From positions 1,910,001 through 1,974,000 of the forward strand of contig NZ_OW150024.1 of NCBI RefSeq assembly GCF_933509905.1: a stretch of DNA of 64,000 nucleotides, in the 5' to 3' direction. The position numbers were made by a program, and so were the translations under genes. This document shows, piece after piece, positions 2,637 to 31,664 of the stretch. The stretch is from Trichlorobacter ammonificans (GTDB lineage: Bacteria > Desulfobacterota > Desulfuromonadia > Geobacterales > Pseudopelobacteraceae). The notes under the pieces were generated by a model. The model was not told where the DNA came from. It saw only the letters and a list, made by a program, of their open reading frames with translations, and searched no databases. The first letter of the stretch is position 1. The number at the start of each line of letters is the position of its first letter.

Positions 2637-4403
2637 CTACGGCTGCTTCGTGCCGCCGCTCAGCGTCACCGTCCCCAGGGGAGCGTCGCCGGTCAGTGTG
2701 GCATTCAGCTTGCCGTCCGCCGTCAGGGAGATGGTAACGGCCACGGTGCCGGACAGCGTGGCGGGCGACCAGGTGATGAACCGCCCTCCCAGGGTCGTGC
2801 GTCCCGTATAGCTGAGGGGATTCAATACATACATGGTGCCTCCCCCCACCGGGGTATAATCCATAAATCCACTGAGCAGGACCGACAGATGGGCGCCATC
2901 GGGGAATGCCCACTCGCCGAAAACGTCCAGGGTGTCGGGCGGCAGGATCTGCGCATAGCGGAAGGTCACCGTGCCGTAGTCCGTACTGCCAACATTGGGG
3001 CGTTTCGTGGCGCCCACGATCTCCAGTTTGTAGTAGGTCGGCGGCTCCATCCCCAACATATCCTTGGAACGAAAGACGTAGACGGTTCCCGCTGTCGCCG
3101 GGAAGGTGGGAGGGCCGGGTTCGTTGCTGTCCCGATAGATGCCGTAGGGCGCCCGGACGATGTCGGCATAGCCCTGGGTGGTGGACAGTGCTACCGCGTG
3201 GGGCAGGATCAGGCCTCCCTCCACGTCGTCGTACATGATCTCGCTCGGCACGCCGCCTGGGATGACGCCGGTGGCAAAGGTAAAGAACTGGTCCCCCCGC
3301 AGGACTGCGGTCATCTCAACAAGGGCGATGAAATCCTGTCCCGTGGCGTTCGCATTGTTCACCACCACCGTCAGGGAGGACGGGCCGAAGGTCTGGCTAC
3401 TCTTCGACGCGCTCAGGGTGTAGCTGCCGTTCTGCACCCCGGCCAGGGTGTAGCTGCCGTCGGCGGCTGTTGTAGCCGTTGCCGTAGCGGCTCCCGAAGT
3501 CGATACCGTCACGCCGCTAACTCCGATGCCTCCAGCGGTCGTCACTTTACCACTGATGGTATAGCTCGTGCCGGTACTTCCCCCCGTGGAAGGTCCGGTA
3601 TAGCTGCTTGCGACATTGCCAAGCAACGTCGTGATACTCGTGCTCGTGGTTTGGGTCCCTTGAACCGTGCCGTTGTGAACGGTATAGGTTGTATAGGTGA
3701 TGGTCGTCGTGCTGTTCCCCTTCAGATACTCGGCGGGATCGACATTCTTTTTCAGCACCTCGTTAACGGCATTGAGTAACGAGGCAAGCTGTGTCTGCAG
3801 CGCAGAAACGCCGGCAGCTCCGGGGGCACTCGCACTCAGGGCGTCGGAAAGGTCCTTTTCCAGAGTAGCCGGTTTAAGCGCACCGGCCAACGACGAGGAA
3901 AGCGTTGTCGGATCGCTTCCTGCCGGGAGTGCACCGCTCCCGAAGGTTCCAATGGGGAGAGAAAGCTTCTGCTCAGCAAGAATGACTGCAGTCGTGGAGA
4001 CTCTGTCCAGGTTTTTCGATACCGTTGCACCGGTCAGCGACGCCCTGTCGAGTAGTGCACGCAGCACCTGTGAACCGCGAACCGCCGTAAGGATGTAGTC
4101 CTTGTCGCGACTCACGCTAGCAGCTGGATAGGTGTAGGTGTCCGTTGTGCCGCTTTTGAGGGTCAAGGGCAGCGGAGCCCCAACGAGAATGCCGTTCAGG
4201 TCCCGTATCTCAAGGGTGAGATTTGCGGCGGCTTTTGTTGCTTGCGCCACTTTTGCGGGGCCTGCAACAACGGCAGGAAAGGTCGCTTCACCTGCCAGAC
4301 TTGTCGTTGTGCTGCCGCCGCTGTCGTTATCACCGCAGCCGAACAGCGCCAAGCCGAGAACAAGCACCGACGCTTTTTTCAAAAGCCTTCCTAATAGTTT
4401 CAT
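2637..4403 (-). CDS. Large lipoprotein with a carboxypeptidase-regulatory-like (Ig-like) domain, function unknown
   Basis: A 588-residue protein with signal MKLLGRLLKKASVLVLGLAL and lipobox LFGC at about residue 23, followed by an Asp/Ser/Gly/Thr-rich linker (GDNDSGGSTTTS). Residues about 40-130 form a beta-rich segment, 130-270 is Ser/Ala/Thr-rich, and about 285-360 is a typical bacterial carboxypeptidase-regulatory-like repeat (SGKVTTAGGIGVSGVTVST, then DGSYTLAGVQNGSYTLSA). The C-terminal 230 residues are beta-rich with no motif I recognise. No enzyme signature is visible. It starts at ATG 4403 behind AAAGGAGG and is divergent from a LuxR-type membrane regulator, which may control it (inference). 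Probably a cell-surface or periplasmic structural or adhesion protein; this is a guess. Confidence 0.85.
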   Translation of the reverse strand: MKLLGRLLKKASVLVLGLALFGCGDNDSGGSTTTSLAGEATFPAVVAGPAKVAQATKAAANLTLEIRDLNGILVGAPLPLTLKSGTTDTYTYPAASVSRDKDYILTAVRGSQVLRALLDRASLTGATVSKNLDRVSTTAVILAEQKLSLPIGTFGSGALPAGSDPTTLSSSLAGALKPATLEKDLSDALSASAPGAAGVSALQTQLASLLNAVNEVLKKNVDPAEYLKGNSTTTITYTTYTVHNGTVQGTQTTSTSITTLLGNVASSYTGPSTGGSTGTSYTISGKVTTAGGIGVSGVTVSTSGAATATATTAADGSYTLAGVQNGSYTLSASKSSQTFGPSSLTVVVNNANATGQDFIALVEMTAVLRGDQFFTFATGVIPGGVPSEIMYDDVEGGLILPHAVALSTTQGYADIVRAPYGIYRDSNEPGPPTFPATAGTVYVFRSKDMLGMEPPTYYKLEIVGATKRPNVGSTDYGTVTFRYAQILPPDTLDVFGEWAFPDGAHLSVLLSGFMDYTPVGGGTMYVLNPLSYTGRTTLGGRFITWSPATLSGTVAVTISLTADGKLNATLTGDAPLGTVTLSGGTKQP

Positions 4404-12373: not shown

Positions 12374-14464
12374 ATGAAAAAGCGTCTGGCGTTTTTGCTG
12401 TTCGGCCTGCTGGGGGCGCTGCTGGCGTTCGTTGCCTACCGGCAGGCCCCGCCCGCCCTGCAGCAGCTCGACTACCGGATGAAGGATGCCCGTTTTCGGG
12501 TCCGGGGGCCGGTACAGCCGGACAAGGATGTGGTGGTGGTGGCCATCGACCACGCCAGCATCAAGGAGATGGGGCGCTGGCCCTGGTCCCGCGAGGTGAC
12601 CGGCAGACTGATCGAGAATCTGGCATCCTACGGTGCCAAGGTGACGGCGCTGGATATTGTTTTTTCCGAACCGCAGAACCCGGCGGCCGATGCCGCCCTG
12701 GCTCGTTCCATCGCCCGGGCCGGCAACGTGGTCATGGGCTATTTCTTCCGGGAGGAAGAGCAGCCGGTCGACCCGGCGGTGATCGCCCAGATGGAACGCT
12801 CCACGGTGAAGCTGATGAAGGTGGCCGAGGGGGTGCAGTCCATCCCCCTCACCGAATACCCCAATCTTGACGCCAACCTCCCGCTGTTGGGAAACAAGGC
12901 CCTGGACTTCGGCTTTTTCAACGCCCGCCCCGACGGTGACGGCCTCTACCGTCGCTCCATCCTGCTGTTGCTGCACGACGGTTCCATTTATCCCTCCCTG
13001 GCCATGAAGGCGCTACGCCATTATCTGGGCAGCGACATCATGCTGGAGGTACAGCCCTGGGGAATCGACAGCGTACAGATCGGCTCCCTGCGCGTACCGG
13101 CCCGCGAAGACGGCACCATGGCGCTGAACTACTATGGCCCGGCCCGTTCCTTCCGGACCGTTTCCGCAGCCGACGTCATCAAGAAGCGGCTCAAGCCCGA
13201 TGAGCTGCAAGGGGCCATTGCCTTTGTCGGGGCAACGGAAATCGGCATCTACGACATCCGCCCCACCCCCTTCGACGCCACCCAGCCGGGAGTGGAACTG
13301 CATGCCACGGTGGCGGCCAACGCCCTGGAGCGCCGTTTCCTGCGCTACGACGGCACCACCCAGATGCTGGAGATCGTCTGCGTCCTCAGCTTGCCGCTGG
13401 TGCTGGGGCTGCTTTTGGCTCTCGTCCCCGGCACCGCCACCGGCCTGGTGGCCCTGGCCGCCACCACCAGCCTGTTCGGGCTGGTCAATTACCAAGTGTT
13501 TTCCCGCTGGCTGCAGGACATGACCGTGATTTACCCGCTGCTGGGCGTCGGCCTTACCTACCTGGGAAGCGAAGCCTGGCGGAACCTGGTGGTGGAACGC
13601 AAGGGGCGACAGTTGAAGAAGGCGTTTTCCAACTATGTCTCACCCGACCTGGTGCGGGAAATTGAAAAGCACCCCGACAAGCTGGTGCTGGGCGGGGAGC
13701 AGCGTGAACTGTCCATCCTGTTCTCCGACATCCGCGGCTTCACCACCGTGTCGGAGAGCCTGACCCCACCGGAGCTGGTCACCCTGCTGAACGAATATCT
13801 CTCCCCCATGACCCGCATCGTGCTGGAGGAGAAGGGGACCCTGGACAAATTTATCGGCGACGCGGTGATGGCGCTGTTCAATGCGCCGCTGGACGTGCCG
13901 GATCACGCCACCCGCGCCTGCACCGCCGCGGTGCGGATGCTGGAAGAACTGAAGCGCCTGAACGCCGGCTTCGCCGAGCGCGGCATGAACACCATTGACA
14001 TCGGCATCGGCATCAACACCGGCAACGCCGTTGTCGGCAACATGGGGGCCGACATCCGCTTCGACTACACCGCCATTGGCGATGCGGTGAACCTGGCCTC
14101 GCGCCTGGAGGGGCTGAACAAGTACTACGGTTCCCACATCCTGGTGAGCGAGGATACCCGTCGGCAGATAGCGGACGGGCTGTTCAGTTTCCGTGAGGTG
14201 GACCGGGTCAAGGTCAAGGGCAAGCATCTGCCGGTGGTGATGTTCGAGCTGATGGTCGCCAACAGGGAGGTGCTGCCGCGCTTCGAAGAGGCGTTGGAGC
14301 GCTACCGCTCCCGGCAGTTCGAAACCGCCTGTCGAATGTTCGAAGAACTGGTGACCACCTACAACGACGGCCCGTCAAAGCTGTACGTCGGCCGCTGCAC
14401 CGAATATCTTGCGTCGCCGCCTCCCGCAGACTGGGACGGCGTCTATACCGCCACGAGTAAATAG
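12374..14464 (+). CDS. CHASE2-domain class III adenylate/guanylate cyclase
   Basis: 696 residues. N-terminal membrane helix (AFLLFGLLGALLAFVAYR), then a CHASE2 sensory domain outside the membrane (about 30-330: VVVVAIDHASIKEMGRWPW, YGAKVTALDIVF), two or three further helices (about 335-405), and a class III cyclase domain (about 430-600): metal aspartates in LFSDIRGFTTVSE and KFIGDAVMALFNAP, and GNMGADIRFDYTAIGDAVNL. The family makes cyclic AMP from ATP (sometimes cyclic GMP) on the cytoplasmic side. The C-terminal ~80 residues are helical, TPR-like. It is 10 bp after the FecR gene and ends 3 bp before mutM. A possible cyclic-nucleotide phosphodiesterase follows at 16.1 kb. Confidence 0.92.
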   Translation: MKKRLAFLLFGLLGALLAFVAYRQAPPALQQLDYRMKDARFRVRGPVQPDKDVVVVAIDHASIKEMGRWPWSREVTGRLIENLASYGAKVTALDIVFSEPQNPAADAALARSIARAGNVVMGYFFREEEQPVDPAVIAQMERSTVKLMKVAEGVQSIPLTEYPNLDANLPLLGNKALDFGFFNARPDGDGLYRRSILLLLHDGSIYPSLAMKALRHYLGSDIMLEVQPWGIDSVQIGSLRVPAREDGTMALNYYGPARSFRTVSAADVIKKRLKPDELQGAIAFVGATEIGIYDIRPTPFDATQPGVELHATVAANALERRFLRYDGTTQMLEIVCVLSLPLVLGLLLALVPGTATGLVALAATTSLFGLVNYQVFSRWLQDMTVIYPLLGVGLTYLGSEAWRNLVVERKGRQLKKAFSNYVSPDLVREIEKHPDKLVLGGEQRELSILFSDIRGFTTVSESLTPPELVTLLNEYLSPMTRIVLEEKGTLDKFIGDAVMALFNAPLDVPDHATRACTAAVRMLEELKRLNAGFAERGMNTIDIGIGINTGNAVVGNMGADIRFDYTAIGDAVNLASRLEGLNKYYGSHILVSEDTRRQIADGLFSFREVDRVKVKGKHLPVVMFELMVANREVLPRFEEALERYRSRQFETACRMFEELVTTYNDGPSKLYVGRCTEYLASPPPADWDGVYTATSK

Positions 14465-16076: not shown

Positions 16077-16835
16077 ATGAGACTCCGCATTCTGGGAAGC
16101 GCCGGCGCAGAATTTCCCGACTTCAGGCCTCCCGCTTTCCTGATTGACGACAGCCTGCTGCTGGACGCCGGCACCATCGGTTCCGTGCTGACCGAAGAGG
16201 AACAATGGCAGCTGCGTCATATCTTCATCACCCACACCCACCTGGACCACGTACGCGGCATACCGGCGCTGGCGGATAACATCATCATCAAAAACCTGCA
16301 GCACCTGGTCACCATCTACGCCACGGAGCAGGTCGTCACCGCCCTGCGCAACCACTTGATGAACGACATCATCTGGCCGGACTTCACCCGCCTGCCCAGC
16401 GCCGAGGAGCCGGTGATGCGTTATGACATCATCCACCCCGGCATCCCGGTGAAGGTGAACGGCTACACCCTGACCGCCATCGAGGTGAACCATACCGTAC
16501 CGGCAGTGGGCTACTGCCTGGAAGGTAACGGCAGGCGGCTGATCTACACCGGCGACACCGGCCCCACCGACGAGATCTGGCAGTACGCCTCCGGCGCCGA
16601 CGCCCTCATCGTGGAAGTATCCTTTCCCAACGACCAGCAACCGCTGGCTCTGCTGACCAAGCACCTCTGCTGTTCGCTGCTGGAAAAGGAGCTGGCCAAG
16701 ATCCCGGTGCTGCCCAAGCGGATTCTGATCACCCATCCCAAGCCGCAGTATTACGGGCAGATCAGGCGTGAGATCGAGATGCTCGGCATCAAGCAGGTTG
16801 AGCTGCTGCGCGATGGCACCATTTACGACATCTGA
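16077..16835 (+). CDS. Metallo-beta-lactamase-fold hydrolase resembling class II cyclic-nucleotide phosphodiesterase
   Basis: 252 residues with a complete metallo-beta-lactamase metal site: FITHTHLDHVRG, VNHTVPAVGY, YTGDTGPTDEIW and LITHPKPQYYG. The order and the long insert between strands resemble class II 3',5'-cyclic-nucleotide phosphodiesterases (CpdP/PDE1 type) more than glyoxalases or RNases. Cytoplasmic, no signal peptide. With an adenylate cyclase 1.6 kb upstream in the same direction, degradation of cAMP is a reasonable guess but not proven; another small phosphodiester or ester could be the substrate. GGGAGG precedes ATG 16077. Its last 23 bp overlap the next gene. Confidence 0.75.
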   Translation: MRLRILGSAGAEFPDFRPPAFLIDDSLLLDAGTIGSVLTEEEQWQLRHIFITHTHLDHVRGIPALADNIIIKNLQHLVTIYATEQVVTALRNHLMNDIIWPDFTRLPSAEEPVMRYDIIHPGIPVKVNGYTLTAIEVNHTVPAVGYCLEGNGRRLIYTGDTGPTDEIWQYASGADALIVEVSFPNDQQPLALLTKHLCCSLLEKELAKIPVLPKRILITHPKPQYYGQIRREIEMLGIKQVELLRDGTIYDI

Positions 16836-17637
16836 TTCCCTGCCGGATATTCCCCGCAAGGTCGGCGCCTGGCTGCTCTATCGGTCCCGCCTTCTCTCGG
16901 AGCTGGCCGATCAGTTCCTCCAATTCTGGCGCTGCCTGCTCTCCCCCCCCTCGCTGGGCAACCCCGCCATCAGGGCGGTACTGCTCAAGCAGGTCTATTT
17001 CACCGGGCTGGAAGCCTGGAAGATCATTGTACTGGTGGCACTGATCCTGGGGACGGTCATCGTCAGCCAGGTGGTGGGACTGGTGGGAGGGGGCAACGGC
17101 TCGCTCACCGGCAAGGTGCTGGTCTGGGTAGTGCTCAGGGAACTGGCACCGCTTTTGACCGCCATGATCGTCATCGCCCGCAGCGGCACCGCCATTGCCG
17201 CCGAGCTGGGCTCCATGAAAATCAACGGCGAGATCGCCACCCTGGAACTGATGGGTATTGCGCCGGAGCGCTATCTGATCCTGCCCCGGATTCTGGGGGT
17301 CGCCAGCTCGGTCTGCCTGCTGACCGCCTATTTCGTGCTGACCGCCTTCATCGGCGGATTCCTGATCGTATCCGTGGGACGCCATATCCCCTACGACCAG
17401 TTCCTGCAGGGTATCATCGCCTCCCTGGGGCTGCGGGAAGTAGTGGTGCTGGCGGTGAAGTCGCTCGGCTTCGGCCTCGCCATCCCCCTGATCTGCTGCC
17501 AGGCCGGCATGTCGGTGGGCACGAGCGCCACCGAAATTCCCCAGGCGGCAACCCGTGCCGTGATCAACAGCCTCTTTGCCGTATTCCTGCTGGACGGCCT
17601 GATCACCTATCTGGCGTCGCTGTTGTCGGCATCCTGA
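16813..17637 (+). CDS. mlaE: MlaE-family ABC transporter permease
   Basis: About 274 residues, starting at an ATG inside the end of the preceding gene. It contains the MlaE/TIGR00056 permease core: helices around IIVLVALILGTVIVSQVV, the conserved coupling region RELAPLLTAMIVIARSGTAI, AAELGSMKINGEIATLELMG, and a C-terminal pair of helices. The family forms the membrane part of Mla-type lipid transporters that move phospholipids between the membranes. Its usual ATPase (MlaF) and MCE protein (MlaD) genes are not adjacent; relatives lie at 29.2-30.8 kb, and the ATPase there lacks its catalytic motifs. Confidence in the family is high, partners are uncertain. Confidence 0.88.
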   Translation: MAPFTTSDSLPDIPRKVGAWLLYRSRLLSELADQFLQFWRCLLSPPSLGNPAIRAVLLKQVYFTGLEAWKIIVLVALILGTVIVSQVVGLVGGGNGSLTGKVLVWVVLRELAPLLTAMIVIARSGTAIAAELGSMKINGEIATLELMGIAPERYLILPRILGVASSVCLLTAYFVLTAFIGGFLIVSVGRHIPYDQFLQGIIASLGLREVVVLAVKSLGFGLAIPLICCQAGMSVGTSATEIPQAATRAVINSLFAVFLLDGLITYLASLLSAS

Positions 17638-29176: not shown

Positions 29177-29860
29177 ATGAGTAGCGCCATCATGGCCGCC
29201 TCCCTCGCCTGCATAGACCTGACCCTCGAAGGGCTGACCACGGGGCTGAACCTTGAACTCTCCCCCGGTACGGCCGCGCTCTTCACCGCCGCCGGCGAGC
29301 AGGAATGCCTGCTGCTGGCTCGTACCTTCGCCGGCGAGCGTCCCCCCGACAGCGGCAGAATTCTTCTGGGAGACGCCTGCCTGGCGGAACTGGGCCGCAG
29401 CCAGCTTCACCAGCTGCGGCGCGCCATCGGCATCGTTTCCCCGCAGGGCGGACTGATCTCGAACCTGAAGCTGTGGGAGAACATCACCCTGCCGCTTTTG
29501 TTTCACGACGGCTGCGTGCCGGAATCGGCCAGCCGGACGATCCGCTCCCTCCTCGACGCCTTCGGCTTCACCGGGAACATCTGGGCCCTGCCCGGCCACC
29601 TGACCCCCTTCGAACGCCGGATGGCGGCCTTTATCCGGGCTGCCGTCAGCGGTGCACGCTGCCTGATCTACGCCGGCTGTTTCGACAACCTGCCGCACAG
29701 GGAACGGGACCTGCTCGTGGAGCAGGCCGCCGGGCTTCACCGGAGCAACGCCGGCATGATCTCGCTGTACCTCACCGCCACCACCACCCCCCTTGACCAC
29801 CTTGAGCCGGACCTGCACTGTAACCTGCGCCACCAACCGGCCCAGATCACGAGGACTTAG
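29177..29860 (+). CDS. MlaF-like ABC protein lacking ATPase motifs
   Basis: About 227 residues that align along their length with MlaF ATPases: PPDSGRILLGD, LHQLRRAIGIVSPQGGLISN (Q-loop glutamine near residue 90), LWENITLPLLFH. The catalytic motifs are gone. Walker A is replaced by FTAAGEQECLLLA (37-48), the signature by HLTPFERRMAAF (141-152), and Walker B by CLIYAGCFDN (162-171) without Asp-Glu. It therefore cannot hydrolyse ATP in the normal way and may be a scaffold. Immediately upstream of mlaD (1 bp spacing). No good ribosome site; ATG 29177 is the best guess, with a GTG at 29153 and ATG 29192 as alternatives. Confidence 0.8.
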   Translation: MSSAIMAASLACIDLTLEGLTTGLNLELSPGTAALFTAAGEQECLLLARTFAGERPPDSGRILLGDACLAELGRSQLHQLRRAIGIVSPQGGLISNLKLWENITLPLLFHDGCVPESASRTIRSLLDAFGFTGNIWALPGHLTPFERRMAAFIRAAVSGARCLIYAGCFDNLPHRERDLLVEQAAGLHRSNAGMISLYLTATTTPLDHLEPDLHCNLRHQPAQITRT

Positions 29861-30817
29861 ATGAGTATGGAACAGGACCCCCGCTTCAAATATCTTGAGC
29901 GCAAGATCGGGCTGTTCGTTCTGGCCGCCCTGGCCGGGGTCGTGCTGGTCGTTGCCCTGGTCGGCTACCAGAAGGATCTGTTCACCAGCACCTATACCCT
30001 CCACTTCACGGTGGATCGCGGTACCGGCTTCACCAAGGGGATGCCGGTCAAACTGTCCGGCTTCAGGATCGGCCGGGTCACGGACCTGGCCCTGAACAAT
30101 CAGGCCATGGTGGACATCACCATCGAAGTCGCCAAGAAATACCACTCCTGGGTACGCAGCGACTCCACCGTCAAGCTGGTCAAGGAGGGGTTGGTGGGGG
30201 ACAGCATCGTGGAAGTCTCCGTCGGCTCCCTGGACAAGCCCCAGGTCAAGGACGGCGACAGCCTGACCTACGTCAAGACCAAGGGGTTGGACGAACTGGC
30301 CGACGAAATAGCCGAAAAGGTGAAACCGGTGCTGATCGAGGTCAAGGAGATCATCAGCTACGTTAACGACCCGGAGGGCGACCTGAAGAAAACCGTCAGA
30401 AATCTTGAACTTCTGACCCGCAACCTGGAAACCACCCGCAGCAACGCCGATGCCCTGCTCAGCGGCGCCAACCGCAACCTGGAGGGGATCGCCCGCCAGA
30501 CCGCAACCCTGCTGGACACCACCGGCCGCAAGATCGACAGCCTCGACCTGACCACGATCAACGCTTCCCTGGATCGCCTGCCACCGCTCCTGGACAAGAC
30601 CGACGCCGCCATGGCCAACTTGGTGCAAATCTCCGACGATACCCGGCTGATGACCCGGCAGACCTTCCCCCTGCTCCCCGGTCTGCTCTCCCGCACGGAA
30701 GAGCTGCTCTTCAGCACCGACCGGCTGATGAACACCCTGAACCGCTCCTGGCTGCTGGGGGGGACGGACGCTCCCTCCCTGGACCGGACCGGAAAGGCGG
30801 GTGACAGCCATGACTAG
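29861..30817 (+). CDS. mlaD: MlaD/MCE-domain lipid-transport protein
   Basis: 318 residues. One N-terminal membrane helix (LFVLAALAGVVLVVALVGY), then an MCE domain (about 38-120): TLHFTVDRGTGFTKGMPVKL and GFRIGRVTDLAL, followed by a long helical tail (about 150-300) with repeated hydrophobic/polar spacing. MCE proteins carry lipids between the inner and outer membranes and are held in the periplasm by the helix. GAGGAC precedes ATG 29861. It overlaps the TPR lipoprotein gene by 8 bp. Confidence 0.92.
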   Translation: MSMEQDPRFKYLERKIGLFVLAALAGVVLVVALVGYQKDLFTSTYTLHFTVDRGTGFTKGMPVKLSGFRIGRVTDLALNNQAMVDITIEVAKKYHSWVRSDSTVKLVKEGLVGDSIVEVSVGSLDKPQVKDGDSLTYVKTKGLDELADEIAEKVKPVLIEVKEIISYVNDPEGDLKKTVRNLELLTRNLETTRSNADALLSGANRNLEGIARQTATLLDTTGRKIDSLDLTTINASLDRLPPLLDKTDAAMANLVQISDDTRLMTRQTFPLLPGLLSRTEELLFSTDRLMNTLNRSWLLGGTDAPSLDRTGKAGDSHD

Positions 30818-31664
30818 GACTAGGAACGAACGGAGCCGGGTTCGTGTCCGTCCCGGCGGCGTCATGCTGCGGGACTCCCTGCACGGCGTACTGCTCTGCA
30901 TGCTGCTGGCCGGCTGCGCCGGCGGCATGCCGCAGGCAAGCGAAAGCCACCGCCGGATTGCCGACCTGAACGAGCGGGCGCTGATGAGTGTGGAAAAGAA
31001 CCGCCTGGACGATACCCGGCGCCTGCTCGACGAGGCCCTCGGGCTGGCCACCGCCCTGGATGACGACGGGCAGCAGGCCCTGACCCTGCTGAACCTGGCC
31101 CGGCTGGAACGGCGACTGGGCCGGCTGGAGCAGGCGACGCGGCTGCTGGAACGGGGCCGCCGTCACGCAGGCGCAACTGGGTACGCCGCCGATCTTGCCC
31201 AGGAAACGGCCCTGGTGCTGCTGGCCGGGGGACAGACAGCCGAGGCCCGCCGCTGGGCGGAAATCGCCCTGCAGGAGGAGCGGGGGGAGATGACGGCGCG
31301 GCGTTTGAATCTGCTCTCCCGCATCGCCCTGCGGCAGGAGGACCGTGCCGCAGCCCTCGCCTACGCGGAGCAGGCACTGGAGAAGACCGGCTCACGGGAA
31401 CTCCTGGCCGAGGAGCGGGCCAATGCCCTGCGGACCATCGGCCGGCTGCGGGGCGAGGAACAGCGGTTCGCAGAAGCCGAGAAACTGTTGCTCGAAGCGC
31501 TCGCCCTCGACCGCCGCCTGGAGCGTCCGGCAAAGATCGCCGCAGACCTGGAAGCGCTGGCGGCCCTGTTGGAACGAACGGGCGACACCGCACGCAGCGA
31601 CGATTACCGCCAGCGGGCCGCCAGGGTACGACACCAGCTTCCGCCGCGCGCCACGGAGCCCTGA
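30810..31664 (+). CDS. TPR-repeat lipoprotein
   Basis: About 284 residues. Signal ends in lipobox LLAGC at about residue 35, after a basic N-region and a hydrophobic stretch (GVLLCMLLAG). The rest is helical TPR repeats: LDDTRRLLDEALGLATALDD, LNLARLERRLGRLEQATRLL, EAEKLLLEALALDRRL. Probably an outer-membrane-attached partner of the MlaD complex, because the start overlaps mlaD by 8 bp (inference). A downstream ATG at 30864 is a possible alternative start. The next gene follows directly. Confidence 0.85.
   Translation: MTRTRNERSRVRVRPGGVMLRDSLHGVLLCMLLAGCAGGMPQASESHRRIADLNERALMSVEKNRLDDTRRLLDEALGLATALDDDGQQALTLLNLARLERRLGRLEQATRLLERGRRHAGATGYAADLAQETALVLLAGGQTAEARRWAEIALQEERGEMTARRLNLLSRIALRQEDRAAALAYAEQALEKTGSRELLAEERANALRTIGRLRGEEQRFAEAEKLLLEALALDRRLERPAKIAADLEALAALLERTGDTARSDDYRQRAARVRHQLPPRATEP

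Follow-up and report, generated by a model that had tools for sequence, protein, structure and literature searches.

A conserved MlaF-like subunit that has lost its ATPase motifs accompanies an MlaE permease and an MCE protein in Trichlorobacter ammonificans

The window, a stretch of 64,000 nucleotides of Trichlorobacter ammonificans DNA, carries a gene for an MlaF-like NBD from which every catalytic motif is gone (pseudo-NBD), followed directly on its 3' side by mlaD and then by a gene for a TPR protein that is probably a lipoprotein of the same operon (Table 1). The pseudo-NBD frame is uninterrupted from 29153 or 29177 to 29860, and the true start, judging from the length of relatives and from inspection of the sequence, is probably ATG 29192 and not 29177. 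An earlier note on this DNA had described the frame as clean and coupled to mlaD, and both descriptions held. An MlaE permease gene lies about 12 kb upstream of the pseudo-NBD gene, directly behind a gene for an MBL-fold hydrolase.

Table 1. Positions in the window of the genes and the segment discussed in the text
Feature	Position	Strand	Evidence
CHASE2-cyclase gene, upstream of the MlaE half	12374-14464		Pfam Guanylate_cyc
MBL-fold hydrolase, RNase Z / class II phosphodiesterase-like; its gene immediately precedes MlaE	16077-16835	+	Pfam Lactamase_B_2 and PDEase_II, synteny
MlaE permease, ancestral operon partner of the pseudo-NBD, probable start ATG 16813	16768-17637	+	Pfam MlaE (191 bits), synteny, co-inheritance
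Pseudo-NBD (MlaF-like, every catalytic motif gone)	29177-29860 (codons to 29857)	+	Motif alignment, fold, homologues, dN/dS
Post-Q-loop segment, codons for residues 85-106 (GIVSPQGGLISNLKLWENITLP), most conserved part of the family	29429-29494	+	Column conservation, invariant residues
MlaD-type MCE protein, 318 aa (TM helix, MCE domain, long helical C-terminal region)	29861-30817	+	Pfam MlaD (48 bits), model, conserved neighbour
TPR protein, probably a lipoprotein of this operon; N-terminus resembles a lipobox (LLAGC), start likely near 30864	30801-31664	+	Pfam TPR_12, downstream neighbour in several phyla, lipobox by inspection

The motifs of the pseudo-NBD were compared with those of the intact MlaF encoded in the same genome. 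In this alignment, the Walker A sequence GPSGEGKSV is replaced by AAGEQECLL, the signature LSGGM by LTPFE, and the Walker B sequence IVLFDEPT by CLIYAGCF, with loss of the catalytic Glu; the H-loop His is replaced by Ala. The earlier statement that Walker A, signature and Walker B were destroyed was thus confirmed, but the Q-loop, which had been thought to be kept, has itself lost its Gln to Pro, and the conserved part is the stretch right behind it (LISNLKLWENITLP). The Gln is present in 4 of 90 degenerate relatives, across which the P-loop glycines, the signature glycines and the switch His are nearly gone. The protein is also shorter than MlaF (227 vs 269 aa). This motif loss predicts that the pseudo-NBD does not hydrolyze ATP. 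No Pfam or NCBIfam model matched it above the model's own cut-off: the single Pfam match, ABC_tran, scored 20.2 bits (cut-off 25), and the top NCBIfam model, MlaF (NF008809), scored 37 bits against a cut-off of 441, which is weak evidence, as intact MlaF proteins of the examined genomes also fall below that cut-off (213-289 bits). When PDB chains were searched with phmmer, the best matches were MlaF-type ATPases of P. aeruginosa, Acinetobacter and E. coli (E 2e-10 to 8e-9), with P. aeruginosa MlaF first (E 2e-10).

An AlphaFold2 model of the pseudo-NBD, with 76 relatives as input, reached a pLDDT of 95.1 and a pTM of 0.91. The top Foldseek matches of this model in the PDB were the ATPase of the mycobacterial Mce1 complex, MlaF of MlaFEDB, and FtsE (including 8fed for Mce1, and 7ch8 and 6xbd for MlaFEDB), with TM-scores by query length of 0.76-0.85, which is also the range against MlaF structures. 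As modeled, the protein appears to retain the NBD fold, in agreement with the earlier note, while its chemistry is gone. A chance resemblance to an NBD was ruled out by the phmmer matches, the model and the Foldseek matches.

Conservation within the family is concentrated at one place. Column conservation over 90 degenerate sequences was 3.00 bits per column for residues 85-106, which contain the motif GGLISNLKxWEN behind the Q-loop position, and 1.05-2.35 for the other segments, whereas in intact MlaF conservation is distributed over all motifs. In 76 pseudo-NBDs of several phyla, residues N96, L97, W100, E101, N102, L105 and R154 are invariant, a result that is inflated in this set because the first of these residues were part of the pattern used to collect it; N96, L97, E101, N102, L105 and R154 are likewise invariant in 43 Geobacterales sequences obtained by whole-protein search. 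In ABC transporters, the NBD cleft accepts the coupling helix of the permease (PMC7367683), and by analogy residues 85-106 are inferred to line this cleft and to form a permease-docking surface. A salt bridge between a permease Glu and Lys98 of the NBD, proposed by eye, was dropped, as a group of relatives with near-intact NBDs has the Glu without the Lys.

To define the distribution of the family, we searched 147 related genomes, in which matches weaker than about 1e-12 proved to be ordinary ABC ATPases. The pseudo-NBD was found in 13 of 14 other genomes of the genus, one of the 13 having it in pieces at the end of a contig. It also occurs in other genera and other families of the order, with identities inside the order of 24 to 57%. 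Scanning for the conserved peptide pattern [IV][SA]NL[KN]xWEN, which is biased toward the degenerate NBD type, in genomes of 84,980 species added Nitrospirota, Nitrospinota, Syntrophorhabdales, Pseudomonadota (Sulfuricella, Gallionellales and Acidiferrobacterales) and one Verrucomicrobiota record, and the 90 fully degenerate relatives come from these groups and Geobacterales. A permease-based search, which is independent of the NBD, gave hits in 49 of 395 genomes of the phylum, and the NBDs that were read beside those permeases also lacked at least some catalytic residues. The catalytic motifs were missing in every true relative read from the same genus, family and order and from other phyla, and no close relative with intact motifs was present among these homologues. 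The earlier note had asked whether the loss is shared, and it is; its label of an MlaF paralogue needs correction, as the protein belongs to an old group of orthologs that have an MlaE and an MlaD of their own and is not a paralogue that decayed recently.

Pairwise NG86 omega for the pseudo-NBD was 0.12-0.29 (11 pairs), well under 1, which answers a second question of that note, whether purifying selection acts on the gene. The corresponding values were 0.04-0.09 for intact MlaF and 0.04-0.22 for MlaD of the pseudo-NBD operon. The gene is therefore constrained, but less so than the intact motor. It could be argued that a gene with an omega several-fold above that of intact MlaF is functionless and decaying, and in a draft genome of Geotalea toluenoxydans the copy is apparently split over two frames (about 4300-4340 of locus L225; a sequencing error or a recent lesion). 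However, an open frame is kept by almost every one of over 100 distinct homologues, certain residues are invariant across phyla, the motif loss is shared, and the gene is inherited together with that of MlaE, as described below. These observations and the low dN/dS contradict a pseudogene, and we consider decay highly improbable.

In many other lineages, spanning other genera and phyla, MlaE adjoins the pseudo-NBD in the gene order MlaE - pseudo-NBD - MlaD - (TPR lipoprotein). In most lineages other than that of the window, the MlaE, NBD and MlaD genes form an MlaEFD-type cluster. In the genus of the window and some sister genera, this operon is split, with pseudo-NBD, MlaD and the TPR gene placed beside iorAB and MlaE placed behind the MBL-fold gene (16077-17637), a conserved MlaE neighbour in part of Geobacterales. 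Because the undivided order is found in other lineages and is split in this genus, the MlaE at 16.8 kb, which had been proposed earlier as a candidate partner, is identified as the ancestral operon partner of the pseudo-NBD. The two are also co-inherited. Among 109 relatives with completeness of 90% or more and contamination of 5% or less, both were present in 34 and both absent in 75, counts that come from phylogenetically non-independent genomes and exclude eight other NBD matches in the group, which were ordinary ATPases. The few discordant genomes, with one partner only, were incomplete assemblies. This agreement holds even though the two loci are unlinked, being widely separated or located on different contigs, in about 25 genomes. 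Since the catalytic features that define an ATPase are absent despite homology to MlaF and an MlaEFD-type operon, the fitting name for the protein is not MlaF but pseudo-ATPase subunit of an MlaEFD-like system.

The R-E, K and D residues of the permease align with those of canonical MlaE, and its coupling-helix region is conserved. The MlaD of this operon has a median length of 318 aa over the family; the canonical MlaD encoded in the window's genome has 150 aa. The model of the long MlaD (pLDDT 71) shows, besides a TM helix and an MCE domain, a long helical C-terminal part, whose last third is poorly predicted and too weak for measuring its reach.

A maximum-likelihood tree was built from 94 permeases (quick search, SH-aLRT support) and used to trace the history of the motor; it was rooted on the canonical group and contains some long branches. 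From the motif alignment of the linked NBDs we assigned four states: canonical; near-intact, with Walker A kept, the signature altered and no switch His; Walker A whole or in part with the rest lost; and fully dead. Three entries in the canonical group have MlaE paired with MlaD but no NBD next to them. The states required 3 changes on the tree, the minimum for four states, compared with a mean of 26.6 after shuffling (support 92-99). They follow one another in the order active, near-intact, Walker-A-only, dead. The simplest history would be a stepwise loss, with the switch histidine lost early and the P-loop last, that had run to completion by the time the versions sampled in Geobacterales, Nitrospirota and Pseudomonadota separated or were exchanged. 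Five loci with the same operon type (L143 and L145 to L148) carry near-intact NBDs, in which Walker A is kept and the switch histidine and the first signature glycine are missing; these proteins are possible ATP binders with little or no hydrolysis.

Motif comparison indicates that a pseudo-NBD paired with itself has no complete composite ATP site left, and therefore either the system needs no hydrolysis or an ATPase is borrowed. As the earlier note suggested, the pseudo-NBD could serve as a scaffold or regulatory subunit. We favor, with a probability of roughly 0.55, the reading that it is a former MlaF-type NBD with the ABC fold and no normal ATP cycle, which acts as a scaffold or fixed gate of an MCE lipid conduit without ATP hydrolysis by its own subunit. 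Two copies would dock through the retained post-Q-loop surface on the coupling helices of a dimer of the 16.8-kb MlaE; in the resulting MlaE2 / pseudoNBD2 / MlaD6 complex they would serve on the cytoplasmic side as scaffold or fixed gate. This complex would pass lipids to or from the periplasmic MCE tunnel, with no ATP hydrolysis by the pseudo-NBD, and the lipids would move down their gradient or through some other driving input. We see about an even chance that the permease is an ATP-independent (passive or signal-gated) conduit, an ABC architecture without ATP use whose only linked NBD is dead across several phyla and whose former motor became the structural base.

The scaffold reading is supported by a conservation that peaks in the post-Q-loop segment instead of the ATP loops, by a loss common to all true homologues under purifying selection in a protein whose predicted fold is nearest to ATPases of MCE systems, by the MlaE - pseudo-NBD - MlaD operon in several phyla together with the co-inheritance of its first two members, by the coupling-helix region and the R-E, K and D residues kept in the permease, and by the order in which the motor motifs disappear on the permease tree. 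Two reports also count in its favor: lipid transfer from MlaD to MlaC was described as spontaneous, without ATP hydrolysis (PMC10212509), and a long MlaD has been proposed as a bridge across the periplasm (PMC10665443). Counted against it is the finding that MlaF of E. coli fails to complement when its Walker A or Walker B is dead, and hydrolysis is thus needed in the canonical Mla system (PMC7367683). The omega of the pseudo-NBD, several-fold above that of intact MlaF, also argues against it, as does the intact MlaF in its own genome and in most relatives searched, which could serve the permease of the window.

This last point allows a different reading, that the permease is still driven by ATP, with the MlaF encoded at about 2.797 Mb docking on the 16.8-kb MlaE and the pseudo-NBD acting as a regulatory subunit or as half of a live/dead pair. 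That MlaF is intact (GPSGEGKS, LSGGM, DEPT, SHD) and belongs to an intact MlaEFD system, most genomes carry another MlaE with an intact MlaF, and of the 47 genomes searched 38 gave an MlaF-like match at E<=1e-60. MCE systems are known to share an ATPase in the case of mycobacterial MceG (PMC9947336). Genomes with the dead operon and no active MlaF were sought and none was established; G115, a complete genome that lacks an NBD at its second MlaE and gave no MlaF at E<=1e-60, has an unlinked intact MlaF-like ATPase. In a live/dead NBD pair, each ATP site consists of the Walker parts of one NBD and the signature of the other. The pseudo-NBD lacks both, which would leave no canonical site in such a pair, and, with its presumed docking segment retained, it should fill the very site that an active MlaF requires. 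We regard a borrowed motor as less likely than the scaffold reading.

The pseudo-NBD might also act chiefly in regulation, as a gate responding to another ligand or partner, for example to the cyclic-nucleotide signaling genes near the MlaE half in some genomes. The MlaE of the window lies downstream of both the CHASE2-cyclase gene and the MBL-fold gene with its class II phosphodiesterase match, and relatives of one or both genes occur near the operon at six other loci (L067, L079, L084, L085, L130 and L136), in several other genomes. A link between cyclic-nucleotide signaling and this lipid system is thus possible. However, most operon-bearing genomes lack these genes close by, and the pseudo-NBD sequence has no sign of a new ligand site, so that a mainly regulatory role appears improbable.

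LetAB-type and PqiABC-type MCE systems are lipid conduits without a linked working ABC ATPase; their inner-membrane parts, PqiA and LetA, are not MlaE permeases, and neither system has an NBD. The present family differs from both in having an MlaE permease and a (dead) NBD, but resembles PqiABC (PMC10897342) in being an MCE lipid conduit without a linked working ABC ATPase. Like MlaFEDB of E. coli, A. baumannii and P. aeruginosa, it combines MlaE, MlaD and an NBD of MlaF fold in one cluster, with a predicted NBD structure near MlaF, but its NBD lacks the ATPase motifs and is shorter, its MlaD is twice as long, and its usual extra neighbour is a TPR lipoprotein. MlaEFD of Veillonella parvula shares the three-gene core and a long MlaD proposed to span the periplasm; its mlaE and mlaF, however, were described as close to those of model diderms (PMC10665443), whereas the MlaF-like subunit here is degenerate. 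Similar to ABC exporters with one degenerate site (TmrAB, TM287/288, CFTR and SUR), the family keeps an NBD under selection despite loss of catalytic residues, but those transporters retain one working or nucleotide-binding site (PMC7756269), while the only linked NBD here is without Walker and signature parts. Our search of open-access papers found no description of the pseudo-NBD family, which is no proof of novelty.

As several phyla keep the dead NBD with the same MlaE channel and MCE protein, these results suggest a lipid-transport machine whose motor became a structural part. Both the ATP need and the lipid direction of Mla and MCE systems are in running dispute, and a natural family whose linked motor is long dead yet kept allows a direct test. 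Living genomes also provide a stepwise series (active, near-intact, Walker A only, dead) from an ABC motor to a pseudo-enzyme. Automatic annotation likely labels these genes as ABC transporter ATP-binding proteins, where the motifs predict otherwise.

Other Mla loci were observed in addition. At five Geobacterales loci of another type (L229, L230, L232, L234 and L237), MlaD comes right after MlaE, and no NBD was detected in the vicinity. The window's own genome has a further MlaE beside lon (L095 4007-4777, about 2.565 Mb), apart from an MlaD (L096 4345-5427, about 0.422 Mb), with no MlaF beside either gene; in other genera, relatives of this MlaE and MlaD occur in one cluster of the order lon - MlaE - intact MlaF - MlaD (L231, L233, L235 and L238).
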